64,000 nt of DNA. Source: Oryzias latipes (lineage: Eukaryota > Chordata > Actinopteri > Beloniformes > Adrianichthyidae). Of this stretch, positions 26,001 through 60,781 are shown one piece after another (the stretch's first letter is position 1; each line of letters starts with the position of its first letter). Below the pieces are notes generated by a model. The model did not search any database and had not been told where the DNA came from. It saw only the letters and a program-made list of their open reading frames with translations. Location of the stretch: contig NC_019859.2 of NCBI RefSeq assembly GCF_002234675.1, forward strand, positions 593,376-657,375, written 5' to 3'. The position numbers and the translations under genes were made by a program.

Positions 26001-29000
26001 CTGGATGAAAGACGTCCAACCTGCTGGATGAAAGACGTCCAACCTGCTGGATGAAAGACGTCCAACCTGCTGGATGAAAGACGTCCAACCTGCTGGATGA
26101 AAGACGTCCAACCTGCTGGATGAAAGACGTCCAACCTGCTGGATGAAAGACGTCCAACCTGCTGGATGAAAGACGTCCAACCTGCTGGATGAAAGACGTC
26201 CAACCTGCTGGATGAAAGACGTCCAACCTGCTGGATGAAAGACGTCCAACCTGCTGGATGAAAGACGTCCAACCTGCTGGATGAAAGACGTCCAACCTGC
26301 TGGATGAAAGACGTCCAACCTGCTGGATGAAAGACGTCCAACCTGCTGGATGAAAGACGTCCAACCTGCTGGATGAAAGACGTCCAACCTGCTGGATGAA
26401 AGACGTCCAACCTGCTGGATGAAAGACGTCCAACCTGCTGGATGAAGACGTCCAACCTGCTGGATGAAAGACGTCAACCTGCTGGATGAAAGACGTCCAA
26501 CCTGCTGGATGAAAGACGTCCAACCTGCTGGATGAAAGACGTCCAACCTGCTGGATGAAAGACGTCCAACCTGCTGGATGAAAGACGTCCAACCTGCTGG
26601 ATGAAAGACGTCCAACCTGCTGGATGAAAGACGTCCAACCTGCTGGATGAAAGACGTCCAACCTGCTGGATGAAAGACATCCAACCTGCTGGATGAAAGA
26701 CGTCCAACCTGCTGGATGAAAGACGTCCAACCTGCTGGATGAAAGACGTCCAACATGCTGGATGAAAGACGTCCAACCTGCTGGATGAAAGACGTCCAAC
26801 CTGCTGGATGAAAGACGTCCAACCTGCTGGATGAAAGACGTCCAACCTGCTGGATGAGAGACGTCCAACCTGCTGGATGAGAGACGTCCAACCTGCTGGA
26901 TGAAAGACATCCAACCTGCTGGATGAAAGACATCCAACCTGCTGGATGAAAGACATCCAACATGCTGGATGAGAGACGTCCAACCTGCTGGATGAAAGAC
27001 GTCCAACCTGCTGGATGAAAGACGTCCAACCTGCTGGATGAAAGACGTCCAACCTGCTGGATGAAAGACGTCCAACCTGCTGGATGAAAGACGTCCAACC
27101 TGCTGGATGAAAGACGTCCAACCTGCTGGATGAAAGACGTCCAACCTGCTGGATGAAAGACATCCAACCTGCTGGATGAAAGACATCCAACCTGCTGGAT
27201 GAAAGACGTCCAACCTGCTGGATGAAAGACGTCCAACCTGCTGGATGAAAGACGTCCAACCTGCTGGATGAAAGACGTCCAACCTGCTGGATGAAAGACG
27301 TCCAACATGCTGGATGAAAGACGTCCAACCTGCTGGATGAAAGACGTCCAACATGCTGGATGAAAGACGTCCAACCTGCTGGATGAAAGACGTCCAACCT
27401 GCTGGATGAAAGACGTCCAACCTGCTGGATGAAAGACGTCCAACCTGCTGGATGAAAGACGTCCAACCTGCTGGATGAAAGACGTCCAACATGCTGGATG
27501 AAAGACGTCCAACATGCTGGATGAAAGACGTCCAACATGCTGGATGAAAGACGTCCAACCTGCTGGATGAAAGACGTCCAACCTGCTGGATGAAAGACGT
27601 CCAACATGCTGGATGAAAGACGTCCAACCTGCTGGATGAAAGACGTCCAACCTGCTGGATGAAAGACGTCCAACCTGCTGGATGAAAGACGTCCAACATG
27701 CTGGATGAAAGACGTCCAACATGCTGGATGAAAGACGTCCAACCTGCTGGATGAAAGACATCCAACCTGCTGGATGAAAGACGTCCAACCTGCTGGATGA
27801 AAGACGTCCAACCTGCTGGATGAAAGACGTCCAACCTGCTGGATGAAAGACGTCCAACCTGCTGGATGAAAGACGTCCAACCTGCTGGATGAAAGACGTC
27901 CAACCTGCTGGATGAAAGACGTCCAACCTGCTGGATGAAAGACGTCCAACCTGCTGGATGAAAGACGTCCAACCTGCTGGATGAAAAACGTCCAACCTGC
28001 TGGATGAAAGACGTCCAACCTGCTGGATGAAAGACATCCAACCTGCTGGATGAAAGACGTCCAACCTGCTGGATGAAAGACGTCCAACCTGCTGGATGAA
28101 AGACATCCAACCTGCTGGATGAAAGACGTCCAACCTGCTGGATGAAAGACGTCCAACATGCTGGATGAAAGACGTCCAACATGCTGGATGAAAGACGTCC
28201 AACATGCTGGATGAAAGACGTCCAACATGCTGGATGAAAGACGTCCAACATGCTGGATGAAAGACGTCCAACCTGCTGGATGAAAGACGTCCAACATGCT
28301 GGATGAAAGACGTCCAACCTGCTGGATGAAAGACGTCCAACATGCTGGATGAAAGACGTCCAACCTGCTGGATGAAAGACGTCCAACCTGCTGGATGAAA
28401 GACGTCCAACCTGCTGGATGAAAGACGTCCAACATGCTGGATGAAAGACGTCCAACATGCTGGATGAAAGACGTCCAACATGCTGGATGAAAGACGTCCA
28501 ACCTGCTGGATGAAAGACGTCCAACCTGCTGGATGAGAGACGTCCAACATGCTGGATGAGAGACGTCCAACATGCTGGATGAAAGACGTTCAACCTGCTG
28601 GATGAAAGACGTCCAACCTGCTGGATGAAAGACGTCCAACATGCTGGATGAAAGACGTCCAACCTGCTGGATGAAAGACGTCCAACCTGCTGGATGAAAG
28701 ACGTCCAACCTGCTGGATGAAAGACGTCCAACATGCTGGATGAAAGACGTCCAACATGCTGGATGAAAGACATCCAACCTGCTGGATGAAAGACGTCCAA
28801 CCTGCTGGATGAAAGACGTCCAACCTGTTGGATGAAAGACGTCCAACCTGCTGGATGAAAGACATCCAACATGCTGGATGAGAGACGTCCAACATGCTGG
28901 ATGAGAGACGTCCAACCTGCTGGATGAAAGACGTCCAACCTGCTGGATGAAAGACGTCCAACCTGCTGGATGAAAGACGTCCAACCTGCTGGATGAGAGA

Positions 29001-31392
29001 CGTCCAACCTGCTGGATGAAAGACGTCCAACCTGCTGGATGAAAGACGTCCAACATGCTGGATGAGAGACGTCCAACCTGCTGGATGAAAGACGTCCAAC
29101 CTGCTGGATGAAAGACATCCAACCTGTTGGATGAAAGACGTCCAACCTGCTGGATGAAAGACGTCCAACATGCTGGATGAGAGACGTCCAACCTGCTGGA
29201 TGAAAGACGTCCAACCTGCTGGATGAAAGACGTCCAACCTGCTGGATGAAAGACGTCCAACCTGCTGGATGAAAGACATCCAACCTGTTGGATGAAAGAC
29301 GTCCAACCTGCTGGATGAAAGACGTCCAACCTGCTGGATGAAAGACATCCAACCTGCTGGATGAAAGACGTCCAACCTGCTGGATGAAAGACGTCCAACC
29401 AGCTGGATGAAAGACGTCCAACCTGTTGGATGAAAGACGTCCAACCTGCTGGATGAAAGACATCCAACATGCTGGATGAGAGACGTCCAACCTGCTGGAT
29501 GAAAGACATCCAACCTGCTGGATGAAAGACGTCCAACCTGCTGGATGAAAGACGTCCAACATGCTGGATGAGAGACGTCCAACCTGCTGGATGAGAGACG
29601 TCCAACCTGCTGGATGAAAGACGTCCAACCTGCTGGATAAAAGACGTCCAACCTGCTGGATGAAAGACGTCCAACCTGCTGGATGAAAGACGTCCAACCT
29701 GCTGGATGAAAGACGTCCAACCAGCTGGATGAAAGACGTCCAACCTGTTGGATGAAAGACGTCCAACCTGCTGGATGAAAGACATCCAACATGCTGGATG
29801 AGAGACGTCCAACCTGCTGGATGAGAGACGTCCAACCTGCTGGATGAAAGACGTCCAACCTGCTGGATGAAAGACGTCCAACCTGCTGGATGAAAGACGT
29901 CCAACCTGCTGGATGAAAGACGTCCAACCTGCTGGATGAAAGACGTCCAACCTGCTGGATGAAAGACGTCCAACATGCTGGATGAGAGACGTCCAACCTG
30001 CTGGATGAAAGACGTCCAACCTGCTGGATGAAAGACGTCCAACCTGCTGGATGAAAGACGTCCAACCTGCTGGATGAAAGACGTCCAACCTGCTGGATGA
30101 AAGACGTCCAACCTGCTGGATGAAAGACGTCCAACCAGCTGGATGAAAGACGTCCAACCTGTTGGATGAAAGACGTCCAACCTGCTGGATGAAAGACGTC
30201 CAACCTGTTGGATGAAAGACGTCCAACCTGCTGGATGAAAGACATCCAACCTGCTGGATGAGAGACGTCCAACCTGCTGGATGAAAGACATCCAACCTGC
30301 TGGATGAAAGACGTCCAACCTGCTGGATGAAAGACGTCCAACCTGCTGGATGAAAGACGTCCAACCAGCTGGATGAAAGACGTCCAACCTGTTGGATGAA
30401 AGACGTCCAACCTGCTGGATGAAAGACATCCAACATGCTGGATGAGAGACGTCCAACCTGCTGGATGAAAGACATCCAACCTGCTGGATGAAAGACGTCC
30501 AACCTGCTGGATGAAAGACGTCCAACATGCTGGATGAGAGACGTCCAACCTGCTGGATGAGAGACGTCCAACCTGCTGGATGAAAGACGTCCAACCTGCT
30601 GGATAAAAGACGTCCAACCTGCTGGATGAAAGACGTCCAACCTGCTGGATGAAAGACGTCCAACCTGCTGGATGAAAGACGTCCAACCAGCTGGATGAAA
30701 GACGTCCAACCTGTTGGATGAAAGACGTCCAACCTGCTGGATGAAAGACATCCAACATGCTGGATGAGAGACGTCCAACCTGCTGGATGAGAGACGTCCA
30801 ACCTGCTGGATGAAAGACATCCAACCTGCTGGATGAAAGACGTCCAACCTGCTGGATGAAAGACGTCCAACCTGCTGGATGAAAGACGTCCAACCTGCTG
30901 GATGAAAGACGTCCAACCTGCTGGATGAAAGACGTCCAACATGCTGGATGAGAGACGTCCAACCTGCTGGATGAAAGACGTCCAACCTGCTGGATGAAAG
31001 ACGTCCAACCTGCTGGATGAAAGACGTCCAACCTGCTGGATGAAAGACGTCCAACCTGCTGGATGAAAGACGTCCAACCATGCTGGATGAGAGACGTCCA
31101 ACCTGCTGGATGAAAGACGTCCAACCTGCTGGATGAAAGACGTCCAACCTGCTGGATGAAAGACGTCCAACCTGCTGGATGAAAGACGTCCAACCTGCTG
31201 GATGAAAGACGTCCAACCTGCTGGATGAAAGACGTCCAACCTGCTGGATGAAAGACGTCCAACCTGCTGGATGAAAGACGTCCAACCTGCTGGATGAAAG
31301 ACGTCCAACCTGCTGGATGAAAGACGTCCAACCTGCTGGATGAAAGACGTCCAACCTGCTGGATGAAAGACGTCCAACATGCTGGATGAGAG
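20058..31392. repeat. 23-bp minisatellite, about 11.3 kb (roughly 490 units), intergenic
   Basis: Near-perfect tandem copies of a 23-bp unit with core GACGTCCAACCTGCTGGATG plus AAA. Common variants are CCAACATGC, GACATCC, GATGAGAGAC, CCTGTTGG and CCAGCTGG. The array separates the spred2 promoter from etaa1. On the minus strand the unit has no stop in any frame, producing open frames of up to 3559 codons with the 23-residue period DVFHPAGWTSFIQQVGRLSS plus SRL; these are repeat artefacts. Its right end is broken by the L2 LINE; a last partial unit survives at 34944-34959. Confidence 0.97.
29401..30694. repeat. 966-bp (42-unit) duplication inside the 23-bp array
   Basis: The rare GGATAA variant occurs at 29635 and 30601, and CCAGCTGG variants (AGCTGG) at 29401, 29723, 30137, 30367 and 30689. 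The pairs 29401/30367, 29723/30689 and 29635/30601 all differ by exactly 966 bp = 42 x 23, showing that a block of about 42 units was duplicated in tandem. Confidence 0.85.
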
Positions 31393-34300
31393 ATGGCGCC
31401 TGTGTGCACGGCCTGCCGTCTGTCAGCGGTATTTTTGTTTGTGTTTGTGCTACTTCTGACAACTGTCATTAAAAACATCAACTCTTTACTGGTGTATGAT
31501 CGCCAAACGCTCCTGGATCTGAGCTGTTTTCCACCAAAGCTGGTGCAGTTTAGACACGATGGTCAGGAGACGCCGCACCCGTTGCTGTCCGAGGTGCCTG
31601 TCTACCTGTGCCGCACCTCAGTGACGTTTCAGCGGAGGAAACGCCGTCGTCGTCGTTATCGGGGAAAACGCGGGGGTAAGCTGGCGAATCTGAAGCGGAT
31701 GCTGACGACCTGTCTGAGGCGCTCTGCGGTGGCCTCGTTGGATGACTTTGGACCGGTTCATCGACTCTTTCCTTCCCGGCGCTCATTGGAGCCTGTCAGC
31801 ACCTGGCTGTTACCTGTCGCCGGCTCAGAGCAGCTGTTCCAGCCTCGCGGTCCCTGTTCTCCTCGCCCCAGGCAGCGCGGGGTGAACCTGGAGAGCTTAC
31901 GGCCGCTCCCCCGGGCCAGCCGGACCATCAACACCCCGGCCCCACCACCCCCCGCCAGATTTGGCCTGGTGAACACTAGGTCCCTGGCAAACAAAACTTT
32001 CATCCTGAAGGATTTTTTCGCCTCTCAGGGCTTGGATTTCCTTTGTCTGACGGAGACGTGGCTGAACGTCGGTGAGTCCAGCGCGTTTTCTGAACTTTTA
32101 CCGCCGGACTGTGATTATTTCAACTCCCCGCGCACATCAGGCCGAGGAGGAGGAATCGCCACCATTTATAAATCTGCATATAAATGTCTCCCTCCGTCTC
32201 TGCTGGTCTCTTTGTCCAGCTTTGAACTTGAACTTTTTGAACTGGGCTGCTCTCCACCGGTGCTGTGTGCTGTGGTTTATCGTCCACCAAAATACAACAA
32301 GGACTTCTTAAATGAATTCTCTGGGCTGCTGGCTGAAATCCTGCTTAAATATGACCGAGTTCTTATTGTTGGAGATTTTAATATACATGTGTGCTGTCCA
32401 GACCATACAATGTCTAAGGACTTTTTAAGTCTTATTGACTCTTTTAATCTTGTTCAGCATGTGTCTGAACCCACGCAGGAACGTGGACACACACTTGATC
32501 TGGTGCTAACATATGGACTCTCTGTTTCTAACCTGGTGATATGTGATGCAGTGTTTTCAGATCATATGCCTGTTTTATTTGACATCACTCTGCCCTGTAG
32601 CCCCTGTAGGCCTCCAGCTCCGGCTCGGTGGGTCCGTATCATCAAACCTTCCACTGCAGCTCTTTTCTCTTCTTCTTTTAATCAAACCAGTGTCATCCCT
32701 CAGTCCACATGTTCTAGTACAGATGAGCTCAGCTCCTGGTTACACTCCACCTGCCTGACAGTACTGGATGCAGTGGTTCCACTTAAATCCAGGCAGCCAA
32801 AAGTTAAAACTGAGCCGTGGTTGAACAACGTAACTCGTGCTGCTAGACGTGAGTGCAGAAAAGCTGAACGGAAGTTTAAAAAGGACAAGCTACAGGTGTC
32901 ACTACAGATGTTGAAGGCCAGCTGGTGTCATTATCAGGCTACTGTAAAAAAGGGGCAAAAAGGGAACATCTGTCAAATGTTATCCTGTTAAACCGACACA
33001 AGCCCCGTGTCCTGTTTAGCACCATAGATGCAGCTCTCAACGCCCCCAAGTCTGTCTATGTCCAACCTACGCTGGAGACATGTGAAACCTTCCTTAGGTT
33101 TTTTGTGGACAAGGTGAATAATGTCAGGGCCCTCATATCACCACCTGGATTTGACCCCTCTGTTGTTGTGTCCTGCCCTGTAACCTTTGACCAGTTTGAA
33201 CCAGTGACTCTGTCTGTTTTATATGAGACTGTGAAACACCTGAAGCCCTCAGGTTCCCCCTCTGATGCGATTCCACCCCGATTATTTAAAGAGGTTATCA
33301 CTACTCTGGGACCTGCAGTTCTTGCTGTTGTAAACGGCAGCCTTTCCTCTGGTGTGTTTCCTAGAAACTGTAAACATGCTACAGTACAGCCATTGATAAA
33401 GAAGCCTAACCTGGATCCCTCTGTGCTGTCCAATTTTAGACCCATTTCTAAACTTCCTTTCCTCTCAAAGATTCTGGAAAAAATTGTGTATGTTCAATTG
33501 AAGGATTTTTTAGATGAAAATGGCAACCTTGAGGTTTTCCAGTCTGGCTTCAAATCTCTACACAGCACCGAGTCAGCTCTGCTTAGGGTGTTTAACGACA
33601 TCCTCTTAGCTACAGATGCTGGGGACCATGTGGTTCTGGTACTACTGGATCTTACAGCTGCCTTCGACACACTGGATCACAACATCTTGATCTCCCGGTT
33701 ACAGCAACTTGTAGGCATCCGTGGCACTGCTCTGCAGTGGTTCAGGTCATATCTAGAAGATAGAACATTTTGTGTAAACCTCAATAATGTTCAATCTTCC
33801 TCTGCTCCTCTACTGTATGGGGTCCCGCAGGGTTCAGTCCTTGGGTCTATGCTTTTCTCTCTTTACTTACTCCCCCTGGGTTCCATTCTTAGAAAGCATA
33901 ACTGTGCTTTTCATTGCTATGCGGATGATACCCAGATATACGTCCCAATAACAAAGAAGGATGCCCACTCCATCAGCCCTTTAATTAAGTGCTTGGAGGA
34001 ATTGAAAATCTGGATGGCTCTTAAATTTTCTCCACCTCAATGACGAAAACACAGAGGTGATTGTCTTTGGTCCCAGTGGCAACAGTGAGTCACACCCTAT
34101 AGCTCTGGGCTCTCTCACTCAATCGGTGAAATCCACAGTCACAAATTTAGGAGTGAAGATGGACACTGGTTTTAATTTGGACAGGCAGATCAGTTCGGTG
34201 GTGAGATCCAGCTTCTTTCAGTTAAGGCAGCTTGCCAAAGTCAAATCATTTTTATCAAGAAAGCACTTTGAGACAGTAATCCACGCCTTTGTTACAACTC

Positions 34301-44731: not shown

Positions 44732-47700
44732 CTACGCCGTCTTCTGCTTCTTCCGGGCCTGAAACTGCTGCGTTTTGCTCTTTATTGATTTGACGAGCAA
44801 CGACAGACTTGGGTCCATGTCTTTCTTTGACGCCATGGTCTCAGAGTCATTTTCCCGCCTTTCTGCGGCAGCTTCCTGTGTCATGGCCGCCTGTCTGTGC
44901 GAAGGTGTGGCCTCCTGAGCGTCGAGCTTGTCCTCCAGGTGGCGCTGCTGCTCTTCTCTGCGTCGCTGCTTCTCTGCCAGGATGCTCTGCATGGCCTTGG
45001 TCTTCCTGTAGTTGGGGTGGGAGGGGTCCAGGCTGAAGAGATGGGAGGTGAAGATGGCCTGGAAGCGGGGGTCCTGAACGTCAACCTGAAACCAAACAAC
45101 GGGGTCACAGAACGCTGCTGCAGTGGAACCACAGACTCTGGAGGATCCCTGCATCCTCTTTACTGCTGTGTCCCAACCAGGAACCTCCTCCAGGGAGGGG
45201 CATTCGTCTACAGAAACGCCTCCATTTAATGATGCAGCTACACCAAAGACCACATCTCAGTATTAAGCATGTGAAACCACCAACAAGGACTCTGGCGGGG
45301 TCACCGTAAGGACTCTGGCGGGGTCACCGTAAGGACCCCGGCGGGGTCACCGTAAGGACCCCGGCGGGGTCACCGTAAGGACTGCGGCGGGGTCACCGTA
45401 AGGACCCCGGCGGGGTCACCGTAAGGACCCCGGCGGGGTCACCGTAAGGACCCCGGCGGGGTCACCGTAAGGACCCCGGCGGGGTCACCGTAAGGACTCT
45501 GGCGGGGTCACCGTAAGGATTCCGGCGGGGTCACCGTAAGGACCCCGGAAGGGTCACAGTAAGGACTGCGGCGGGGTCACCGTAAGGACCCCGGCGGGGT
45601 CATCGTAAGGACCCCGGCGGGGTCACCGTAAGGACCCCGGCGGGGTCACAGTAAGGACTGCGGCAAATCAACCATAAAGGCTCCGGCAAAGCTGGAAATG
45701 AACTTCCATCCTTAACAGAATCTTTGGAGGAAGTCGATCATTTATCTTCCAACTAGAAAACCTTCTCAGATGAGCAACACACCCAAGATCAGAAGTCTCA
45801 CCTGGAAGCCGTCATCCTCCAGTAGCTCCGCCCCTTTCTTCAGGAGCTTCTTCCTTTTCTTCTTGCTCAGGTTCTGCTGCTCCACGATGCGGTCGTAGTT
45901 GAAGTGTGCGTGTTTGGGGTCCGTGTCGTCCTCCATCAGCAGAGCCATCTCAGCCTGGAACACAAACAGGGTCAGCTCCAGCTGGAAGCAGCAGTTCTCC
46001 TCAGTGGGAGGGGCTTCGCCTGACCTGCTGTTTCTCCAGCTCCTCGCCGTTGTCGGCAGCACATATTTCCACCTTCTTCTTCTTCTTCGGTTTTCTCTTC
46101 ATGTCTGCAACAGAAGAAGAGTTGGACTCTGACCCTCATCATCCAGAAAGAACCCAGGAGCTCCTCTGGGACGTGGACACTTCTTGATGTCAGAGTTCCT
46201 CTGAACGTCTCCAGGAACAGCGACAAACAGCAACACGTTCGTAGCAGCAACACCTTCAACCATCAACAACCCGAGCCGTCACCAGAGAACCGGCAGTCAG
46301 GCGCGTGGCGGTGGTTTCCCACCAGCAATGAGGTTCTAGGCTGAAGCACTGACCACTGCGTTCCCCTCCGAGCTCCTCCACAAAGAAGGGGTCGCTGAGG
46401 TCGACGTCATCAGGAAGCTGGTCATCGCTGAGCTCGCCATCAGACGCCCCCTACAGGGAATAAGGTCACATGACTCAGGAGGAGGCACAAAGGTTAAACC
46501 CAGTAAAGCATCGACTCTCTAGCAGCCTGGTTATCTGGGGGGCGGAGTCACAGGCCTTGATGACCAAACCCACATTCCTGTTTTCCATGAAGAAAACCAA
46601 ACAGGATCCACTAAGATCAACCCCATGATGTGGACCCCCTGAACCTTCAGTGTTGGTGTCCAGCCCACCTGCTTCTTCCCGCTCTTCTTCTCCTTCTTCT
46701 TCTGCAGGTACCCCTCCCAGGGCGTCAGCTTGTCCTTCCCCTCCAGCTTTTCCTTCACCAGCTTCTCCGTGGTCTCCTTCAGACCTGCAGAAACCACACA
46801 GCAGCTGTGAATCCAGTCCAAAGCTGCTCCCGGACCAGGTCTATGCTGTTCTTCCTGTTCCTGGTCTTAGTGGATGCTATCCATGCTCCCGGTTCTCCCT
46901 CCAAGGTGACATGGGAGAAGTGGGAGGATGTTGTCAACAAGCTGGAGGGGAAGATGGAGAAGTGGTGATGGCTGCTCCCCCAGACGTCTTCTAGGGTTAG
47001 AGTTCTGGTCATCAACTACCGTGTTGCTTCCCTGTTTGGGTCCTGATGGGGGGGGGGTCTCACTGGACATCAGCTTCGTCCCTTCAGTCCCAACGGCCCG
47101 ACTCTGAGGACGTTGTCCATGTTAGTCATTGGAGGGGAGGACGGACCACCTGGCAGAGTTCTTTACAAGGCCCCTGTATGGAGAACCGGAGACCTGCGAT
47201 GGCGGCTCTTAAACGGTTCTGTTGCTTCTTTTATCTCTGTTGTTACCGTCTCTGACCGCCGGCCTTTCTGCCGTCAGAGGGAGACGGTTTCTGTTTTTAG
47301 GGAGTGAGAGTGGATTTGTGGTTTTGGTTATGGGTCAGGATACAAGAAGACAGAGAGAGAGAGAAGTTGGAGCTGTGGTACCACAGTCAGAGTTCGCCTA
47401 AACGTCTCCAGGAACAGCGACAAACAGCAACATGTTCGTAGCAGCAACACCTTCAACTGTGGTACCACAGTTACTGTGGTAACTAGTTACCACAGTAACT
47501 AGTGTTCTTCATGTTCCTCATGAATTTCAATTCTCTAACATTTTGTTAAATGATCCCAAACTGCATGAAAACCTGAGGTTCCCTGAGGAACCTCGTTTTA
47601 GAACCTTCAGCAGAATCTCTCCAGTTCTTAGAAAAACCACCGTTTGCTCCTGAACATTTTCCAGTACCGTTTCATTACAAACTGGAGATCCCCCTTTGGG

Positions 47701-50700
47701 CTCCATACCTGGCACCCAGGTGACCTCCATCTCCATGTCTTTGTCCTCCTTCTGGTCTTTGTCCTGGACGCTCTTCAGCAGCTCTCTGTACTTGGAGATT
47801 TGCTCCTCACTCCTCCTCTTCTTCGTCTCGCTGACAGCTGCCTCTGTGGAAGGAGGAGCAGATCAGTTCCATTCCACAGAGGGACCCCTCCCTGAAAGCT
47901 CCGGTCCCACCTCCCCCCGTGTCCGGCTCCTCTCCACTCAGAGCCTCCTCTTCCTCACTGGAGGAGGCCAGGTAGGCCCTGAAGTCCATGTCCAGGAGCT
48001 CGTCTTTGTTGAACTTTCGGTTGAGGGCGGTCAGGCGCTCGTGGTCGGTCTCGTCCCACGTCAGCTGCACCTGGTTGGAGGAACACGCGTTAGTGTCTGG
48101 GAGGGAGCAGAAACCGCTGAGACGGTCTCACCTTGGAGGTGGCGGCGGCTGAGGAGGTGAAGAGTTTGGGCGTGAACGCAGAGGGATTGACGTGGGTCGC
48201 CTCGTCTCTGGGCTCCTCGTCAAACGTCATGTCTTCAGGAACGAACCTGTTGGGCTCAGAGTCGGTCAGACGTGTGCGGCGGCGGCGGCTGAAGGACGGC
48301 CAGACGAGCGTACCGGAGGTCCAACACGGAGCAGCTGCTCTCGTACTCAAAGCCGTCGCACTCCTCGTAGATCTTTGCCGCCGTGTCGACCGAGTCGCAC
48401 TCCACCACGGCGTAGAAGTACTTCAGGCGCTTGAACTGGTAGTCGCGGATCTTCTCCCTGTGAACCCTGAGAGGAGGTGATGAGAAGGAGCTGCAGCAAA
48501 GTTCCCGCCCTCTGTGAGGAGGCGCAGCAGATGCCAGCATGACATCATCATGACAGCAGCACTTACCTCTCCTCCTCCGTGTCTTCCTCGGAATCTTCTG
48601 GAAGGGCCTTGAGCTCCGGTGGTCCCCGGGCCTCCTCCTCCTTCAGCCTCTCTTTCCCAAATTCTGACGGGTAGATCTGAGCAACACCCAGAATGCATTG
48701 CTGTTAGAACGCCGTTGCTGACCACGCCCCTTCCATCAGAATGGGTCCCACGGGCCGCCTCACCCTCACAGACAGCACGGCGCCCCCTTTAGGTGCAAAC
48801 GAGCCGAACAGAACCAGCAGGTCCCGGGCCTTCATGCGGTCCCAGTCCATGTTGCAGACGGCCAGCCGAGTCGAAGCCTGACCCAACAGAACCGGGTCAA
48901 ACAGATCCACAACGGTCACCCCCTCCCCTCCCTCTGAGGCGGACCCACCTGTTCGCCCCGTGGAGCGTCCTTGCACAGCTCTCCCCAGTCATGCTCCAGC
49001 TCCTCTTCCTCCCTCCTGAGGATGGCGTCCACCTCATCCTCCTCATCTTCGTCTGAGCTGGTCTCCACGTTCCCCTTCCCCCGGGCCAGGTCCGGTCCAC
49101 TATCGCTGTCGTCCTCAGAATCCAGACTGGACGACTCCTCCTCATCGGACCGCCTCGCTTCGTGGCGCTTCCCCTCCTCAGCTTCATCACCAGCAGACAG
49201 CTCCTCGTCTTCATCACCTTAGAACAAGAGAAACAGCATCAGAGGATCTTCTGGAGGCCCGATGAAGATCTGAGCTCCATCGCTTCCCGTTCTGACCTCA
49301 GGGTCACAAACATGTTCTCCGTTCGTTTTTCCTGGTTTAACGGAACAAAGTTTTTCTGTTTTTCATCTGCTGTCGCCATGGAAACGCAGCAAAGACGGGT
49401 CAGGGGCTCAGCTGTGGGACAGTGTCTGGCCAAGGAGTTTAATGAGGGACCACCTGGACCGTAAACGAAACACCCGCCTGAGGCTACGAGAACCCTGTCA
49501 GAACCAAAGACAACCATCAGAACCATAGAGAACCATGAAACCGATCAGAACCATAGAGAACCATCAGAACGACATGGCGCGACAGTGGCTCAGGTGGTTG
49601 AGCGGGTCGTCCAATGATCGAAGGGTTGGCGGTTCGATCCCCGCTCCCCCCAGCCAAATGTCGTTGTGTCCTTGGGCAAGACACTTCCCCCTCCTTGCCT
49701 CCAGTGTGGCTCCACTGGTGTGTGAATGTGCATGTATGATCCCGGTGATGGTCAGAGGGGCCGTAGGCGGGAACTGGCAGCCAGGCCTCTGTCAGTCTGC
49801 CCCAGGGCAGCTGTGGCTACAACCGTAACTACCATCACCAAGAATGAATGAGGAGGGAATGAATAATGGACACAATGTAAGAACTTTGGATGTCTTGAAA
49901 ATCGCAGATAAGTCCAATCCATAGAACCAATCAGAACCAAAGAGGACCAGCAGAACCTGTCAGAACCAAAGAGAACCATCAAACGGATCAGAACCAAAGA
50001 GGACCATCAGAACGATAGAGAACCATCAAACCGATCAGAACCAAAGAGGACCATCAGCACCAGTCAGAACCAAAGAGGACCATCAGAACCATAGAGAACC
50101 ATCAAACCGATCAGAACCAAAGAGGACCATCAGCACCAGTCAGAACCAAAGAGGACCAGCAGAAACAGTCAGAACCAAAGAGAACCATCAAACGGATCAG
50201 AACCAAAGAGGACCATCAGAACGATAGAGAACCATCAGAACCGGTCAGAACCAAAGAGGACCATCAGAACCATAGAGAACCATCAAACCGATCAGAACCA
50301 AAGAGGACCATCAGCACCAGTCAGAACCAAAGAGGACCAGCAGAACCTGTCAGAACCAAAGAGAACCATCAAACGGATCAGAACCAAAGAGGACCATCAG
50401 AACGATAGAGAACCATCAGAACCGGTCAGAACCAAAGAGGACCATCAGAACCATAGAGAACCATCAAACCGATCAGAACCAAAGAGGACCACCAGCACGA
50501 TAGAGAACCATCAGAACCGGTCAGAACCAAAGAGGACCACCAGAACCATAGAGAACCATCAGAACCAAAGAAGACCACCAGAACCAAAGAGAACCAGCAG
50601 AACCAAAGAGGACCATCAGAACCAAAGAGAACCATCAGAACCGATAAGAACCAAAGAGGACCATCAGAACCATAGAGAACCATCAGAACTGGTCAGAACC

Positions 50701-52943
50701 AAAGAGAACCATCAGAGCCGGTCAGAACCAAAGAGAACCATCAGAACCATAGAGAACCATCAAACCGATCAGAACCAAAGAAGACCATCAGCACGATAGA
50801 GAACCATCAAACCGATCAGAACCAAAGAGGACCATCAGAACCAAAGAGAACCATCAGAACCGATAAGAACCAAAGAGGACCATCAGAACCATAGAGAACC
50901 ATCAGAACTGGTCAGAACCAAAGAGAACCATCAGAGCCGGTCAGAACCAAAGAGAACCATCAGAACCATAGAGAACCATCAAACCGATCAGAACCAAAGA
51001 AGACCATCAGCACGATAGAGAACCATCAGAACCGGTCAGAACCAAAGAGGACCACCAGTACCATAGAGAACCATCAGAACCGGTCAGAACCAAAGAAGAC
51101 CACCAGAACCAAAGAGAACCAATCAGAACCAAAGAGGACCATCAGAACCAAAGAGAACCATCAGAACCGATAAGAACCAAAGAGGACCATCAGAGCCGGT
51201 CAGAACCAAAGAGAACAGTCAGAACCAAAGAGGACCATCAGAACTAGGGGTGTCAGAAAAAAATCGATTGGGTAAAATATCGCAATAGTTCATTTGGCAA
51301 TACTTGTATGGATTCAAAATGCTGCCAGATCGATGTTTATTTAATTATTTCTGAGCGTCCTTCAGCGTCTGACTCTTGTTGTCCACTTCACCCTCCGACC
51401 TCTAGTTGGCAGCAGAGAACATGGAGCCTCTTTGAGCAGCTCTACTCTGCACAAGACAACAGGAAGACTGCAGCCAGAGGCAGCTGGTTCTGTTGTTACG
51501 AGACATGAACTACTTCGTTTTTACTTGAAGGGATACTAGACAGAAACTCTGAACCATGTTGCTGCCAGTAAGATAGAAAAACGAGGATTTCTGTGCTTTT
51601 TAGCGGCTCAGATAAATAAGATAGACAATGAAGCACGGCAGCAGCTAATAGGCTAATGCGCTTAGCATCTGCTAACATGCTAGCAAAGCGGGCTAAAGTT
51701 CTGCAGAACCTCCCAGCAACAGATTCTAGTTTAGTGACCTGATGGATCAGAGGGATGTGTACATCGCTCTGAAAAAGGCTGACTGTGGTGATCAGTGTTA
51801 CCAGTTCCTTCTGTGTGTGAGAAGCGTGTCTGCAAAGGTGCAGCAGAGCAGACTGTAAACATACAAAGCACCTTTTTTGTTACATTAAAGCAACTTTCCT
51901 TCCTTCTGTCCTGCTGCCTCATCATCACACTTTATTGTTTCTGGAAAAAAACAGTTTGCCCCCCCCCCACCCCTTTATTTTGGAAGCACCATTCAGGCCC
52001 CAGAACCGTTGAAAAGCACTAGAGAAGCTACATTAATGCTGAAAATAAACAGCATTTTATTTCCCCAAAAGACACTTATTGGTTAAGGAACATTCATTCT
52101 TTGTTTTTTCTTACACTGAAAAATATATATTTATGTTTTAAATCAGACAATGTTGACTTCCCTTTCTATGTTTTAACTTACCAAAATAAAAGCACTATGA
52201 ACTTATATATGAGATACAGTTGCAGTGCTTAACATTAACATTGTGATCATTAAATAAACTGAATTTGACCATTTTATTACAGTGGAAGACATTAAGATTC
52301 AGGTAAAGTTTTTTCAAAGTCCTTAAAAAAACAGAAAGGAAATATGTTTTGGTAAAGTATCGGGATACGTATCGTATCGCCAGACTCTTGCCAATACACA
52401 CCCCCAATCAGAACCGGTCAGAACCACTGATCTAACAGCTTCGGTCCTGCGTGATCCGGCCAATCAGAAGGCCTCTATGTGTGGGCGGGGCCAGTCGCCG
52501 TGTGGCGTTACTGCTCCAGCTTTAGTCCAGCATGCCAGCAGTCTTCCTCGGTCTCTGCAGCTTTATGGCGTTGACACAGATGTTCTTCTGTGAGGATGAA
52601 GTTCAACCAAAAGCTCCTCACCTTCATCATCATCATCATCGTCTCCTCTTCCTCGCGGTTCAGCTTCATCTTCTCTGACCTTCGTCCTCCCCTCCTCCTC
52701 CTCCTCTTCATCGGAGTCAGACAGCTGGTAGAAGCGCCTCAGGTCTTCGGCGGTGGAGTGGCTGACGGGTCGGCCCCGTTTGTCCACCGTCTGTTTCACC
52801 TTGAAGCGCTGGTCGTGGAACATGGACCGGAACCGTTTGTCAATACTGATCTTACGGTCCCGCTCAGGCATCTCCCAGAACCGTGGGTCCTTCTGGACCC
52901 GGAGGAATCGTGGATCGCCGTCCTTCATCTTCTGGGACGACAT
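44732..52943 (-). CDS. esf1: ESF1 nucleolar pre-rRNA processing protein, 13 coding exons, 725 aa
   Basis: Nucleolar factor needed for early 18S rRNA processing. Minus-strand exons: 52622-52943, 48949-49217, 48764-48877, 48567-48676, 48314-48466, 48132-48246, 47911-48070, 47709-47843, 46669-46784, 46354-46450, 46025-46104, 45802-45954 and 44732-45085. All phases agree (2178 nt). The N-terminus has [20 protein letters not shown] and [16 protein letters not shown]. The acidic linker has [18 protein letters not shown]. The core has [36 protein letters not shown] and [17 protein letters not shown]. The C-terminal NUC153 motif is [20 protein letters not shown], and the end is QFQARKKQK. The acceptor TTTCTTCCAG sits one base before the ATG, so a non-coding exon probably lies near the ndufaf5 promoter. 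It is shorter than human ESF1 (about 851 aa), mainly in the charged linkers. Confidence 0.95.
45285..45668. repeat. 23-bp GC-rich minisatellite, about 16-17 copies, in the last esf1 intron
   Basis: The unit AAGGACCCCGGCGGGGTCAC plus CGT is repeated with substitutions such as GACTCTGGC and GACTGCGGC. Each consensus unit holds the inverted repeat GACCCC-GGC-GGGGTC. It lies between coding exons 12 and 13. Confidence 0.93.
46204..46260 (+). repeat. Dispersed direct repeat, copy 1 of 2
   Basis: This 57-bp block starting AACGTCTCCAGGAACAGCGA matches 47401-47457 with one mismatch (CACG versus CATG). Weaker similarity extends about 12-15 bp upstream (GTCAGAGTTC). Copy 1 is in the intron between esf1 exons 10 and 11. 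Confidence 0.9.
47401..47457 (+). repeat. Dispersed direct repeat, copy 2 of 2
   Basis: Same 57-bp block as 46204-46260, 1197 bp away, in esf1 intron 8. It is followed directly by GTGGTACCAC and the 32-bp palindrome, which copy 1 lacks. Confidence 0.9.
47469..47500. repeat. Perfect 32-bp palindrome
   Basis: The arms AGTTACTGTGGTAACT and AGTTACCACAGTAACT are exact reverse complements with no spacer. A shorter palindrome, TGTGGTACCACA, lies just to the left and at about 47373. Confidence 0.92.
49575..49905 (+). mobile_element. tRNA-derived SINE (V-SINE/AFC-like) in esf1 intron 1
   Basis: The 5' part has an A-box-like TGGCTCAGGTGG and a B-box-like GGTTCGATCCC, spaced as in a pol III promoter. 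The body has the teleost SINE core words CCTTGGGCAAGACACTTCCC, CTCTGTCAGTCTGCCCCAGG and GCTGTGGCTACAA. The tail CTTTGGATGTCTTGAAAA resembles the usual CGCTTT..GTCTTGAAAAGCGC end. Orientation is opposite to esf1. The degenerate A and B boxes suggest an old copy. Confidence 0.8.
49906..51236. repeat. Degenerate GAACC-rich minisatellite in esf1 intron 1
   Basis: Repeats of CAGAACCAAAGAGGACCATC and AGAACCATAGAGAACCATCA alternate in irregular order, with blocks of about 200-250 bp recurring. Similar words occur upstream of the SINE at 49490-49570, so the SINE seems to have been inserted into this repeat. Confidence 0.9.
51245..52406. mobile_element. Non-autonomous hAT-like DNA transposon with 8-bp target duplication
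   Basis: The left end is TAGGGGTGTC and the right end ACACACCCCCA, giving short imperfect TIRs. Both ends are flanked by ATCAGAAC (51237-51244 and 52407-52414), an 8-bp target duplication as expected for hAT. The ends also carry the inverted words GGTAAAATATCG..CAATACTTG and GGTAAAGTATCGG..GCCAATAC. No transposase frame is visible in the 1.16 kb. The flanking sequence is itself an ATCAGAACC-rich repeat, so the duplication could be partly fortuitous. Confidence 0.65.
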
Positions 52944-54071: not shown

Positions 54072-57000
54072 ATGAGGAGCAGAGGAGGCTTCAGAGTCCT
54101 GCAGAGGCTGCGGAGGGCTGCGGTCTGTGCGGCGGGGGGCCCCGGGACGGGGCTGGGGGGCCCCGGGACGGGGCTGGGGGGGCCCGGGACGGGGCTGGGG
54201 GGGCCCGGAGCCTGCAGGAGGCTGTCGGGCTCCGTGATCGTCTTCAACCGGGAGATGAAGAAGCGGCAGAAGGACTGGGCCGCCTCCCTGCAGGATGGAC
54301 AGCAGTACGACTACCTGAGGGACGAGGTGAGGAGACGGGGGAGGGGGGTGGGGGGGGGGGGTAATCTTCATACAGAACCTCCAAGTTCTATCTAAACAAA
54401 CCTTCTGGACCCGGGAGAGACCCGGATCTGGAGAATCCTCTGGGGGTGGGGGGTGTTCTAGTTCATTGGATACACCAATCCTGGTAAACAGCTGCAGGGG
54501 AGTTTTGCTTCATTTCCCTCCATTCTGGTCGCTCAGCGTTGGTGAAACATACCTGGAACATACCTGGAACATACCTGGAACATAGCTGGAACATAGCTGG
54601 AACATAGCTGGAACATACCTGGAACATAGCTGGAACATAGCTGGAACATAGCTGAGACAAACATGTTGTGCGACTCTGTCCACGTTTGGGTAACAAACTT
54701 CTTCTCATGTCTGTTGGCAGGTTGGCAGCCGAGTGGCGGATCGGGTTTATGACATTGCAAGGTGGGTTCTGAGTAGATCCAGACAGTGAGGTCCTGCTGT
54801 ACTCAGAGGAACCGCCTCTGTGGCATTGAATGCTTCTGTCTATGTGAAGAAGTATCCAGTCTGACCCAAGATCAATGAAGAAGAGGAGTCTGGATCCGTC
54901 TGCAGAACAGCCGTGTGTCGTTGTGCGTCCGTCAGCTTCCAGCTCACACTCTTCTTCCTGCTCTCCGGTTCCGTAGGACGTTTCCTCTGGCGTTAGACAT
55001 CGGAGCAGGAAAGAGTCACATCGCCCAGCATCTGACTGAGGTCAGTGTGAGAACCTTCATGTGGAGGTTGTGGTCTGAGCCAAAGCTCAGCTGACTGCTG
55101 TCGTTTCAGGAGGTGGTGGAGCGTCTCCTCCTGACCGACGTCTCCCAGCAGGCTCTGGTGAGTTCTGGAGGCCCGGTTTCATCCTCGGTGCTCCACAGTC
55201 TCTGAGGCCTCAAACGGGACTTTTCTGGTTCTCCTGACTGCAGAGGCAGAGGCGGCGGACCCCGATGGCGACGCGGTGCGTTCTGGCTGACGAGGAGTTC
55301 CTGCCGTTTCAGGAGAACAGCTTTGACCTGGTGGTGAGCAGCCTGAGGTGGGTCAGGAGGCCTCACTTCCTGTTATGCTCGGCTTTGTTTCATGATGACA
55401 TTTGTAATCTTTTGTCTGCTTCAGTCTGCATTGGATCAACGACCTGCCCGGGGCTCTCAAACAGGTGACACACGCCGACCTCACAGGCTGACCTGGAGCT
55501 CCGAGTCGCTCAGACTGTCCCCTCCCCTCAGATCCACCAGGTGCTGAAGCCGGACGGCGTGTTCATCGGGGCCATGGTGGGCGGGGAGACGCTGTACGAG
55601 CTGCGCTGTTCGCTGCAGCTGGCCGAGACGGAGAGGGAGGGGGGGTTCTCCCCCCACGTGTCGCCCTTCACTGCCGTCACGGACCTGGGAAACCTGCTGG
55701 GCCGGGCCGGCTTCACCATGCTGACCGTGGTGAGAGTCCGTCAGCCAATCGGTGCCTGAGGTGAGGTTTTCTCAAGCTCCAGTGGGAGGAGTCTGACGGC
55801 GGTGTTTGTTTCTGAAGGACGTGGATGACGTGCAGGTCCACTATCCAGGAATCATGGAGGTCATGACGGATCTGCAAGGTACAGACCGCCAAGCCGCTGC
55901 CGCCATCAGGTTAACGCGGAAGAGCTGCCCAATCACTGATGTCTGGTGCACGAGTGTGGTGTGCACGAGTGTGGTGTGCACGAGTGTGGTGTGCACGAGT
56001 GTGATGTGCACGAGGGTGGTGTGCACGAGGGTGGTGTGCACGAGTGTGATGTGCACGAGTCTGGTGTGCACGAGTGTGATGTGCACGAGTGTGGTGTGCA
56101 CGAGTGTGGTGTGCACGAGTGTGGTGTGCACGAGTGTGATGTGCACGAGTGTGGTGTGCACGAGTGTGGTGTGCACGAGTGTGATGTGCACGAGTGTGGT
56201 GTGCACGAGTGTGATGTGCACGAGTGTGGTGTGCACGAGTGTGATGTGCACGAGTGTGGTGTGCACGAGTGTGATGTGCACGAGTGTGGTGTGCACGAGT
56301 GTGGTGTGCACGAGTGTGATGTGCACGAGTGTGATGTGCACGAGTCTAGTGTGCACGAGTGTGTTGTGCACGAGTGTGGTGTGCACGAGTGTGTTGTGCA
56401 CGAGTGTGGTGTGCACGTGTGTGGTGTGCACGAGTGTGGTGTGCACGAGTGTGATGTGCACGAGTCTGGTGTGCACGAGTCTGGTGTGCACGAGTGTGGT
56501 GTGCACGAGTGTGGTGTGCACGAGTCTGGTGTGCACGAGTCTGGTGTGCACGAGTGTGATGTGCACGAGTGTGGTGTGCACGAGTGTGATGTGCACGAGT
56601 GTGGTGTGCACGAGTGTGGTGTGCACGAGTGTGGTGTGCACGAGTGTGATGTGCACGAGTGTGATGTGCACGAGTGTGGTGTGCACGTGTGTGATGTGCA
56701 CGAGTCTGGTGTGCACGAGTGTGATGTGCACGAGTCTGGTGTGCACGAGTCTGGTGTGCACGAGTGTGATGTGCACGAGTCTGGTGTGCACGAGTGTGGT
56801 GTGCACGAGTCTGGTGTGCACGAGTGTGGTGTGCACGAGTCTGGTGTGCACGAGTGTGATGTGCACGAGGGTGGTGTGCACGAGTGTGATGTGCACGAGT
56901 GTGATGTGCACGAGTGTGGTGTGCACGAGTGTGGTGTGCACGAATGTGGTGTGAACGAGTGTGGTGTGCACGAGTGTGGTGTGCACGAGTGTGGTGTGCA

Positions 57001-59011
57001 CGAGTGTGGTGTGCACGAGTGTGGTGTGCACGAGTGTGGTGTGCACGAGTCTGGTGTGCACAAGTGTGATGTGCACGATTGTGATGTGCATGAGTGTGGT
57101 GTGCACGAGGGTGGTGTGCACGAGGGTGGTGTGCACGAGGGTGGTGTGCACGAGTGTGGTGTGCACGAATGTGGTGTGCACGAATGTGGTGTGCACGAGT
57201 GTGGTGTGCACGAATGTGGTGTAAACGAGTGTGGTGTGCACGAGTGTGGTGTGCACGAGTGTGATGTGCACGATTGTGGTGTGCACGAGTGTGGTGTGCA
57301 CGAGTGTGATGTGCACGAGGGTGGTGTGCACGAGTGTGGTGTGCACGAGGACGGGGCTGGGGGGGGCCCGGAGCCTGCAGGAGGCTGTCGGGCTCCGTGA
57401 TCGTCTTCAACCGGGAGATGAAGAAGCGGCAGAAGGACTGGGCCGCGAGTGTGATGTGCACGAGGGTGGTGTGCACGAGTGTGATGTGCACGATTGTGGT
57501 GTGCACGAGTGTGGTGTGCACGAATGTGGTGTAAACGAGTGTGGTTTGCACGAGTGTGGTGTGCACGAGTGTGATGTGCACGATTGTGGTGTGCACGAGG
57601 GTGGTGTGCACGAGTGTGGTGTGCACGAGTAAGTGTCAGACAGACAAACGGACAGAAACGCAAACAAGAGACAACCGATGTAAAATGATCCAGCAATAGT
57701 TTTGTGAATCAACGCTGCGTTTGCTGAAGTCTTTCAGAAACATGAACAGATTTTTCCTCCACTGTCTTTGAAGTCCAGAAATCCAGATTATCACCTGGAT
57801 TCTAATAATCTTGATGAGTTGGGTTTCTGTTGTTCTCCTTCATCAATGAACTGAAAGAGTTCAGGCCTCAACTGAAGCTTGGCATTGCCGTGGTTTCCAC
57901 TGATCCTCTAGGGATGGGAGAGAGTAACTGCGCCTGGAACAGGAGGACGCTGCTGCACAGGGACACCATGCTGGCAGCTGCTGCCGTTTACAAAGGTGAG
58001 GTGGTTTCACAACAGCAGCACACTTTGCACTACACAACAACAACACACAACGAGCAGACACCAAGCTGTTCCCGGGGGAACCCCGTCACCTCCGCCGTTC
58101 AGCCGTTCGTCTGGGAGAACACGTGGAACGTCTTCCTTCAGCTGATGCAGAGATTCCAGCAGGAACCGTTTTTTTCCGGTTGTTGGGACTCCGGCGCCCT
58201 GAAGAGTCCCTCAATAGAAACCTTGTCAGGGTTCTGCAGAACACGACCCAAACTCAGCAGGACGGACGTCCTGAGGGAGGCGAAGCAGCTGGAGGAGGTG
58301 TGGCCTCACGCTTCCTGCTGACTCAGCTGCTGCTCCACCTGTTTCCTGGCTGCTCTGACATCACTTCCTGTTTGACCAGCTGTTTCTGATGTGACTCTGC
58401 CGTCTTTCAGAGATGTATGGGAGCGAGGACGGCGCCGTGCCCGCCACCTTCGAGATCCTCTACATGATTGGCTGGAAGCCTCACGAGTCTCAGGTGAGCG
58501 TCAGAGGTGAGGTAAAAACCCCGCCCACATACGAGCACGGCTCTGGCCTCAGAAAATGTTTGATCCCCTCTGGGCTTCATGGAGCGGCGGGACAGAACCT
58601 CATTTCATAGACTCACCTGTAGACCCTCAGGTAGACGTTCTGGCTCTTCAGAAGCCCAATGAGGGTCACGGAGGGCGAGGCGATCTCCTCCGGGGTTAAA
58701 AGTCTCAAAACAAGAACCAACCATGAAACTTTACTGTTCTGAGACGGAACACCGAAGCTCCCTGTGGAAAGGATGGCGCTTAGCCAGGAGACAGGAAGTG
58801 GGCGGGGCCTCTTCAAACCCCCGTTTGGACCCACAGCAGGGACAGAACCACAGAGGTTTTTGGGTTTTGGATGAGAAGATGACGTCACTGTAGAGACGTT
58901 TGAACTGAAGCTGCTGTTTTTCAGGCCAAACCGGCGAAGCGAGGCTCCGCCACCGTCTCCTTTGGAGACCTGTCGCGGATCGGCCAGCCGGGCCCTGACC
59001 ACCAATCGTAG
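54072..59011 (+). CDS. ndufaf5: NDUFAF5, mitochondrial complex I assembly factor (arginine-hydroxylase family), 11 exons, 354 aa
   Basis: Matrix protein with a methyltransferase-like fold that hydroxylates an arginine of NDUFS7 during complex I assembly. Exons: 54072-54326, 54721-54761, 54977-55040, 55110-55157, 55244-55347, 55425-55464, 55532-55729, 55818-55878, 57912-57995, 58411-58493 and 58925-59011; phases agree (1065 nt). The basic N-terminus [20 protein letters not shown] suits a transit peptide and is followed by three 7-residue GPGTGLG repeats (residues 23-44). Then [14 protein letters not shown], a motif I-like LDIGAGKSH (105-113), [93 protein letters not shown] and [11 protein letters not shown]. 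Motif I has K-S where the human form, as I recall it, has R-G. Poly(A) signal at 59148-59153. Confidence 0.95.
54125..54203 (+). repeat. Coding 21-bp minisatellite in ndufaf5 exon 1 (GPGTGLG x 3)
   Basis: The word GGGACGGGGCTGGGGGGCCC is repeated three times with a 21-bp period inside exon 1. It adds whole heptapeptides and keeps the frame, and lies between the basic transit-peptide segment and the conserved domain. Confidence 0.9.
54543..54655. repeat. 11-bp tandem repeat in ndufaf5 intron 1
   Basis: About ten copies of GAACATACCTG or GAACATAGCTG in tandem. Purely intronic, between exons 1 and 2. Confidence 0.88.
55938..57632. repeat. 15-bp GT-rich minisatellite, about 1.7 kb, in ndufaf5 intron 8
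   Basis: About 105 copies of GTGCACGAGTGTGGT and variants (GTGTGAT, GAGGGTGGT, GAGTCTGGT). Because 15 is divisible by 3, conceptual translations on both strands give long 5-residue repeats such as CTSVV or HTTLV; these are not proteins. The array fills most of the 2-kb intron between 55878 and 57912. It is interrupted at 57349-57446 by a copy of part of ndufaf5 exon 1. Confidence 0.96.
57349..57446 (+). pseudogene. Captured fragment of ndufaf5 exon 1 inside the intron 8 minisatellite
   Basis: These 98 bp match exon 1 positions 54187-54283 at every base except one extra G in a G-run (8 versus 7). The fragment runs from the last coding heptapeptide repeat through [20 protein letters not shown] and stops mid-exon without a splice site. 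It is in the same orientation as the gene and is flanked on both sides by 15-bp minisatellite units. Confidence 0.93.
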
Positions 59012-59896: not shown

Positions 59897-60781
59897 ATGC
59901 TGCTCCTCGTCTGCCTCCTCTCGGCTGCAGGACTCCGCGTCTGCTCAGGTAACTGAAGCCCCTCATCGCCGCCGCTCGTGTCCCGCCGACGGCTGTGAGG
60001 GACCAGAGGCCTTCAGAGGAACCTGCACCTAAACGTCTTAGACAGTTTCTTTTGCCGTCTGTCTTTGTGTTCTGGAACCGTCAAGGTTTTGGGTTTCAGC
60101 TCAGTGAGGACTTCCCCTCACAGCTGTTCTTGCTCCGTAGGAATCCTCCAGCAGGTGGCGCCGCTGCACTCGGTGGCCGTACTCCCATGTCCTCATGCAG
60201 GAGAAGACGTGACCTGGAGCAGATTTCAAAACGGGGCCAAGCTGGTTCTGGTCACCATCAGAGAGGGCCGGGAGACGAGGCTGGACCGGCGGTTCGGTTC
60301 CCAGGCCGACGGCTCGCTGGTCATCATCCAGACGGAAGCTTCTGATGAGTCCGTCTACGTCTGCAACCAGAAGCACCGAGTTTATCTGACGGTGACCTCA
60401 GATGCAAAGCAGATCCCCTCAAAAGCTCCCCCAGAACCAGGACCACGAGGAGGCGACCCTGAAGACCCGCGGGGCGGATCTGCAGAGATCCAGGAGACCT
60501 CCGGCTGGTGGAAGCTTCCTGCGGGTGTGGTAACCGGGGCAGCTCTGGTTCTGCTCTCCGCCTTCATCCTGAGGTTCTGCTCGGCGAAGAGAGCAGAGAA
60601 GACCGACGGCAGAGACCGGAGCCTTCCTGACGTGGTCTACGAGGAGATCCAGGTCATCGGCGAGCTCAACAGAGGTCCACTGTGCTGCTCTCAGCCGGCG
60701 GGCGGGAACCCGCACAGCACCGGCCCACATCCTGAGGAGATGAGGACCAAAGACAACGAGATCTACTCCAGTGATCCGTAA
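59897..60781 (+). CDS. Single IgV-domain type I membrane protein with an ITIM-like tail, 230 aa, unassigned
   Basis: Two exons: 59897-59948 and 60141-60781 (693 nt in frame). Residues 1-17 (MLLLVCLLSAAGLRVCS) are a signal peptide that ends at a phase-1 donor, the usual leader/Ig junction. Residues 19-105 form one V-like Ig domain with Cys34 (VLPCP), Trp43 (VTWSR), a DGSLVI strand and SDESVYVC with Cys92. A Pro/Gly-rich stalk (107-138) leads to a membrane helix at about 143-163 (PAGVVTGAALVLLSAFILRF). The basic-flanked cytoplasmic tail has VVYEEI around Tyr184, fitting the ITIM pattern (V/I/L)xYxx(L/I/V), and a terminal EIYSSDP. It is probably a small immune-type inhibitory receptor of a fish-specific group. 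I do not recognise an orthologue. The Ig exon and the stalk/TM/tail being one exon is unusual; an unseen intron is possible. Confidence 0.72.

Follow-up and report, generated by a model that had tools for sequence, protein, structure and literature searches.

Here we describe a 98-bp piece of a coding exon located inside a minisatellite that belongs to the same gene. The piece derives from exon 1 of an ndufaf5-type gene and sits within the 15-bp tandem array of intron 8, and in our judgement it is probably the product of a germline templated insertion, in which copying would have made an excursion from the intron 8 array, used exon 1 as donor and then returned. An intact donor, short shared ends, what appears to be slippage in a G run, and an excursion followed by a return together make up the pattern of a templated insertion. 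All positions refer to the window, by which we mean the whole 64,000-nucleotide stretch of Oryzias latipes DNA that was analysed.

The host gene, which we take to be ndufaf5 in agreement with the human protein and with the naming in an earlier note on this DNA, extends over 54072-59011 of the + strand and comprises 11 coding exons that give an open frame of 354 aa, with all ten introns (10/10) bounded by GT-AG. Its predicted product matches the Pfam family Methyltransf_11 (E 1.5e-19), and comparison with solved structures returned 20 sequences, assorted methyltransferases, of which 3dtn was the best (E 4.5e-8). Coding exon 1, from the ATG to the splice donor, occupies 54072..54326 (+) and carries, in the N-terminal part, a 21-bp coding minisatellite (54134..54208, +; 3.6 copies) that is rich in G runs and encodes the heptapeptide GGPGTGL. 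This coding minisatellite also holds the gene's exonic G-quadruplex (G4) motifs, and its length may differ among individuals. Downstream of the gene, at approximately 59897-60781, an apparent small two-exon gene could be read by eye, whose product would have a signal peptide, one immunoglobulin-like domain and a membrane segment, also by eye.

A BLASTN comparison of the window with itself aligned the donor segment of exon 1, 54187..54283 (+, 97 bp), with the insertion at 57349..57446 (+, 98 bp) over 98 columns at 98.98% identity, with 0 mismatches and 1 gap, the E value being 5e-42 with the whole window as query and 1e-44 with a 140-bp query. This confirmed what the earlier note had claimed from the letters, a 98-bp copy of exon 1 in the same orientation with a difference of one G. 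The longest exact run is 87 bp (54197-54283 = 57360-57446), and the sole difference is the length of a G run, which is 7 in exon 1 (54197-54203) and 8 in the fragment (57359-57366). Every donor base (97/97) is therefore present in the fragment together with one extra G, which would be a slippage-type gain. A chance origin of the identity is excluded and, exon 1 itself being intact, the transfer was of the copy-and-paste kind. Also borne out was the description of the fragment as starting in the coding heptapeptide repeat and ending mid-exon: position 54187 falls inside the 21-bp repeat and the fragment stops 43 bp short of the exon 1 splice donor at 54326, on which grounds a duplication of the exon with its splice sites was rejected.

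After removal of matches within one array, the self-comparison left 10 rows with E up to 1e-3, among which the pairing of the fragment with exon 1 ranks third; the two stronger ones both lie at 62.5-64 kb. It is the only one of the 10 with an end inside a listed array. A separate 72-bp direct duplication, 46189-46260 and 47386-47457, is 94% identical, with its copies 1.2 kb apart and outside the listed arrays. The self-matches bear on the idea that the donor was not exon 1 but some other genomic copy, a processed pseudogene or paralogue that perhaps already had 8 G, as the one-G difference from exon 1 might suggest. All 97 local exon bases are, however, present in the fragment, and no third copy of it occurs among the self-matches in the window; we regard such a donor as very improbable.

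The target of the insertion is the 15-bp minisatellite of intron 8 (55879..57911, +; phase 1), which TRF places at 55946..57630 (+) with the consensus GTGCACGAGTGTGGT and 111.7 copies of a 15-bp period, interrupted by the exon 1 sequence. To the left of the insertion, 93 full units are followed by a broken unit that begins at 57341; to the right, the array restarts with GAGTGTGAT and continues with 11 full units from 57456, the last unit being partial. The earlier statement that clean array units flank the fragment was correct, though both junctions fall mid-unit, the left after position 9 of the 15-bp unit and the right resuming at position 7. At the left junction, the array gives way to the exon after GTGCACGAG (57341-57349), the exon sequence picking up at GAC; the G at 57349 is shared by array and exon, as is the next G if the broken unit is a GAGGGT variant. 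On the right, the exon sequence ends at 54283 with a C that is common to the array. The assignment of 57349, perhaps also of 57350, and of 57446 to exon or array is ambiguous, and the junction overlaps amount to 1 bp on the left (2 bp with the GAGGGT unit) and 1 bp on the right, with no untemplated bases at either junction. Any repeat at the fragment borders is at most GAG/CGAG (3-4 bp), on both sides, and with a 15-bp periodicity a duplication of 3-4 bp is indistinguishable from a loss of about 12 + 15n bp. Furthermore, no target duplication of at least 5 bp was found at the fragment edges, and neither edge bears an A run or poly(A) tract as read from the sequence.

Summed over 13 intervals, tandem arrays make up some 33.5 kb, or 52%, of the 64-kb window, and such arrays are hard to assemble. 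It is conceivable that a chimeric read or a faulty consensus placed the fragment in the array, the more so as the sole difference from exon 1 is one of homopolymer length, a common long-read error. An artefact of this kind would, however, have to involve a pair of joins separated by 98 bp, each flanked by array sequence; the window contains no N bases, and no sign of a chimera was noticed. Nor are interruptions a general property of the arrays. Eight of them were scanned for stretches of at least 12 bp without 9-mers recurring three times, a measure that would miss an inserted piece itself recurring three times within the array, with four short arrays omitted; six of the eight had no such stretch, and one each was found in the intron 8 array and in the 49498-51244 region. 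The interrupted intron 8 array is only 1.7 kb long, whereas two longer arrays, one of 15.3 kb with a 28-bp unit (2110-17415) and one of 11.3 kb with a 23-bp unit (20058-31393), gave none by the same measure. We hold an assembly or sequencing artefact to be unlikely; judged from anatomy alone, the insertion would be real.

The other non-array stretch, 357 bp at 49573-49929, has a tRNA-like head, with neighbouring TRF arrays of similar AGAACCAT-type units on either side; it is presumably a SINE inserted in a tandem array. Elsewhere, at 18316-18468, TRF found 3.6 copies of a 42-bp unit that are 100% identical and form a 14-residue repeat open in one + frame.

The arrangement of variant units around the insertion is informative in its own right. 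We encoded the array as a sequence of unit types, 93 to the left of the insertion and 12 to the right (the first partial), and searched it for internal duplications with our own unit-level score, which merges a unit with a first-base variant (TTGCAC) with the common unit. The top-scoring duplication is a six-unit block, geKgaD at 57191..57280 (+) and geKGaD at 57501..57590 (+), the two differing by one base, TTGCAC for GTGCAC, and bracketing the exon 1 insertion. By this score the pair reaches 8.5 and the next real block 3.3, while the best block of each of 500 unit shuffles scored 3.7 in the median, with the 95% point at 4.9 and the highest value at 6.8. When units were left unmerged, a search for exact blocks of at least five units returned five pairs, geKgaD/geKGaD not among them. 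At the base level, an alignment of the left flank (57191-57349) with the final 129 bp of the array (57501-57629) shows one substitution and one gap of two units; the left flank ends in the unit phase GTGCACGAG, as does the array where it meets unique sequence. In a whole-DNA control with 1,090 other array ends, the best score was 116.5, against 121.05 for the left flank; this closeness means that the duplication signal rests on the rare variant units.

These features suggest that the end of the array may have been copied twice, with the exon fragment between the copies. On their left, the two copies of the block are preceded by different units (gee vs araD), so a re-copying of the present left flank would be inexact, and another allele or later turnover must be assumed. 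A strict reconstruction, in which copying returned to a known unit, was tried and rejected: the right-hand order araDgeK is absent from the left part of the array, and thus the exact landing unit cannot be named. It is also possible that the insertion landed by chance between the two copies of an older duplication.

For the templated insertion that we prefer, the following course of events is envisaged. A break or stalled fork would have arisen within the minisatellite of intron 8, possibly at its 3' end. The growing DNA end would have left the array and copied ~97 nt of exon 1, 3.1 kb upstream and in the same orientation, before returning to the array at an upstream unit and copying the array end a second time; the insertion and the block duplication would then be one event. 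The copying may have been carried out by error-prone end joining (polymerase theta) or by microhomology-mediated break-induced replication (MMBIR), and a folded G4 on the sense strand of exon 1 may have halted it or exposed the donor. The earlier note had likewise proposed a templated insertion with exon 1 as donor, and this remains the best-supported account, the donor being intact and the ends mid-exon. It accounted for the fragment; the minimal junction overlap, the bracketing geKgaD duplication and the G4 repeat at the donor edge were outside its scope.

A non-overlapping pattern search found five G4 motifs in the window, four on the + strand and one on the - strand, of which two lie in exon 1 and a third just past exon 1 in intron 1. 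The motif at 54165..54188 (+), with four G runs of at least 3 and loops of 1-7, is closed by the G run 54186-54188, and the copied tract starts at the 3' edge of this motif; the first unambiguous exon base in the fragment is 54188, or 54189 if the broken unit is the GAGGGT variant. The repeat in exon 1 permits seven possible G4 3' edges. Counted for one end, 35 of the 3277 positions between exon 1 and the insert qualify as a G4 3' edge, and within exon 1 alone 35 of 255 do (about 14%); the 35-position count omits the motif in intron 1, in which the G run is broken up by the pattern search alone. The coincidence of motif and donor edge was noticed post hoc and lends modest support to G4-stopped copying. 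A DNA end extended leftwards from 54283 along the sense strand would stop at the G4 fold, and copying in the opposite direction along exon 1 is equally possible. In C. elegans, 84% and 80% of the 3' junctions of G4-induced deletions, at two sites respectively, mapped no more than 3 bp from the first G of the motif (PMC4654259). The ndufaf5 event resembles these in that the edge of the tract adjoins a G4 motif and differs in that the G4 is at the donor, theirs being at the break. Whether the locus is a vertebrate germline record of G4-stopped copying, in which a leftward-moving end on the G-rich sense strand of exon 1 stopped at the folded 54165-54188, jumped back and re-copied the array end, strikes us as rather doubtful, and we put this detailed version forward tentatively.

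A hairpin at the right edge of the donor, formed by CCTGCAGGAGGC (54211) and GCCTCCCTGCAGG (54282) with one bulge and seen by eye, was set aside, since we found no mechanism for it. An ungapped hairpin search did not report this pair and found one other (54092/54212).

The donor could also have been an RNA. Exon 1 is part of the transcript and the fragment is wholly exonic and in sense orientation, so a break in the array might have been patched with reverse-transcribed ndufaf5 RNA, the route put forward for class 2 insertions, and the GC skew of exon 1 is positive (0.30), a property that favours RNA:DNA hybrids. On the other side, the fragment crosses no exon junction, and nothing about it requires RNA. 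Class 2 templated sequence insertion polymorphisms (TSIPs) in humans are patches that lack poly(A) and target duplications, as does the ndufaf5 fragment (PMC5110952). The experimental insertions of the same report fell on 18 of the 24 human chromosomes with no obvious preference; unlike these scattered events, a same-gene donor 3.1 kb away favours a local DNA template (PMC5110952). All told, we think an RNA-templated patch distinctly unlikely.

The likeness to class 2 insertions extends beyond the source of the donor, for these share with the ndufaf5 insertion a distinct intact donor, the lack of a target duplication of at least 5 bp and junctions of the microhomology type, here 1-2 bp on the left and 1 bp on the right; they differ from it in that its donor is local, within the same gene and 3.1 kb off, and its target is a minisatellite (PMC5110952). 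The templated inserts made by C. elegans polymerase theta are similar in that they are primed from a single base (PMC5068794), although one shared base is easily met by chance, and in the presence here of one slippage-type error. Those inserts have a mean length of about 10 bp. Of them, 37-44% could be placed within 20 bp of the breakpoint and 2-3% originated >1000 bp away or on another chromosome; a further 47-50% were too short for mapping (PMC5068794). By comparison, the ndufaf5 insert of 97 nt from 3.1 kb is neither short nor copied from a nearby template, and any deletion at the target would be invisible because the array is periodic. By analogy, the ndufaf5 insertion may work like TMEJ but would not be a typical member of that class.

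Insertions linked to MMBIR also involve a template excursion and a return to the original locus, giving an insertion (PMC8421209). In one set of 103 from the cancer part of that work, overlaps of 2-12 bp occurred at 80% of junctions (PMC8421209), compared with the shorter overlaps here of 1-2 bp on the left and 1 bp on the right. In addition, MMBSearch sought inverted copies within 100 bp (PMC8421209), whereas the donor here is a direct copy 3.1 kb off. Donor pieces are likewise copied and pasted in yeast Dna2, Rad27 and RPA mutants, where the breaks were induced, in contrast to the natural event at a tandem array described here (PMC11724301). The inserted pieces in yeast and human are said there often to come from fragile, repetitive or R-loop regions (PMC11724301). 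Finally, PMC7615360 states that human meiotic repair favours autosomal insertions, with signatures of template switching and end joining, and notes minisatellites near telomeres as unstable. Compared in this way, the ndufaf5 insertion fits the group of templated insertions and matches no single member exactly.

The age of the event is less constrained than its anatomy. Zero substitutions in 97 bp give a 95% upper limit of 3.1% divergence, and at 0.7% divergence zero would still be expected half the time. Divergence up to 3.1% could mean millions of years, and the near-identity therefore does not imply polymorphism; on recency and polymorphism the case is weaker than the earlier note had claimed, and a recent origin of the fragment is only loosely supported.

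We also considered whether the fragment could be spliced. Between an AG and a GT lies an open stretch of 99 nt, 57350-57448, free of stop codons, which in the phase of the intron would be translated largely in the frame of exon 1 and would preserve the reading frame of the gene. A new cassette exon here is nevertheless unlikely, with a pyrimidine fraction of 0.38 before the one AG tested, compared with 0.62-0.81 for the ten real acceptors of the gene, and a poor donor score of -1.55 in a simple scheme. Among five GT sites near the right edge of the fragment (last exon base 57440-57469), four have negative scores and one scores 0.79; the ten real donors of the gene range from 0.73 to 7.13, and the weakest, that of exon 8, is equalled by the downstream GT at 0.79. 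The splice signals around the fragment are weak and, since the fragment is intronic, its effect on the gene is probably nil. It is most likely a repair scar, and we propose no function for it.

Change in minisatellites is usually a matter of their own units being gained, lost or shuffled. The ndufaf5 fragment seems to be a plain instance of an already known type of mutation; among the titles and abstract openings listed in a literature search that covered few subscription journals, none reported a piece of an exon within a minisatellite of the gene it came from. A foreign piece with a likely base-exact source acts as a tag, indicating that repair of an array can reach a coding exon 3.1 kb away. 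Such a tagged insertion provides both junctions, and with its help one could trace in relatives how old the changes in the array are and in what order they arose. If the G4 reading is true, a G4-forming coding repeat would be tied to array growth and to the capture of foreign sequence in an intron of the same gene.
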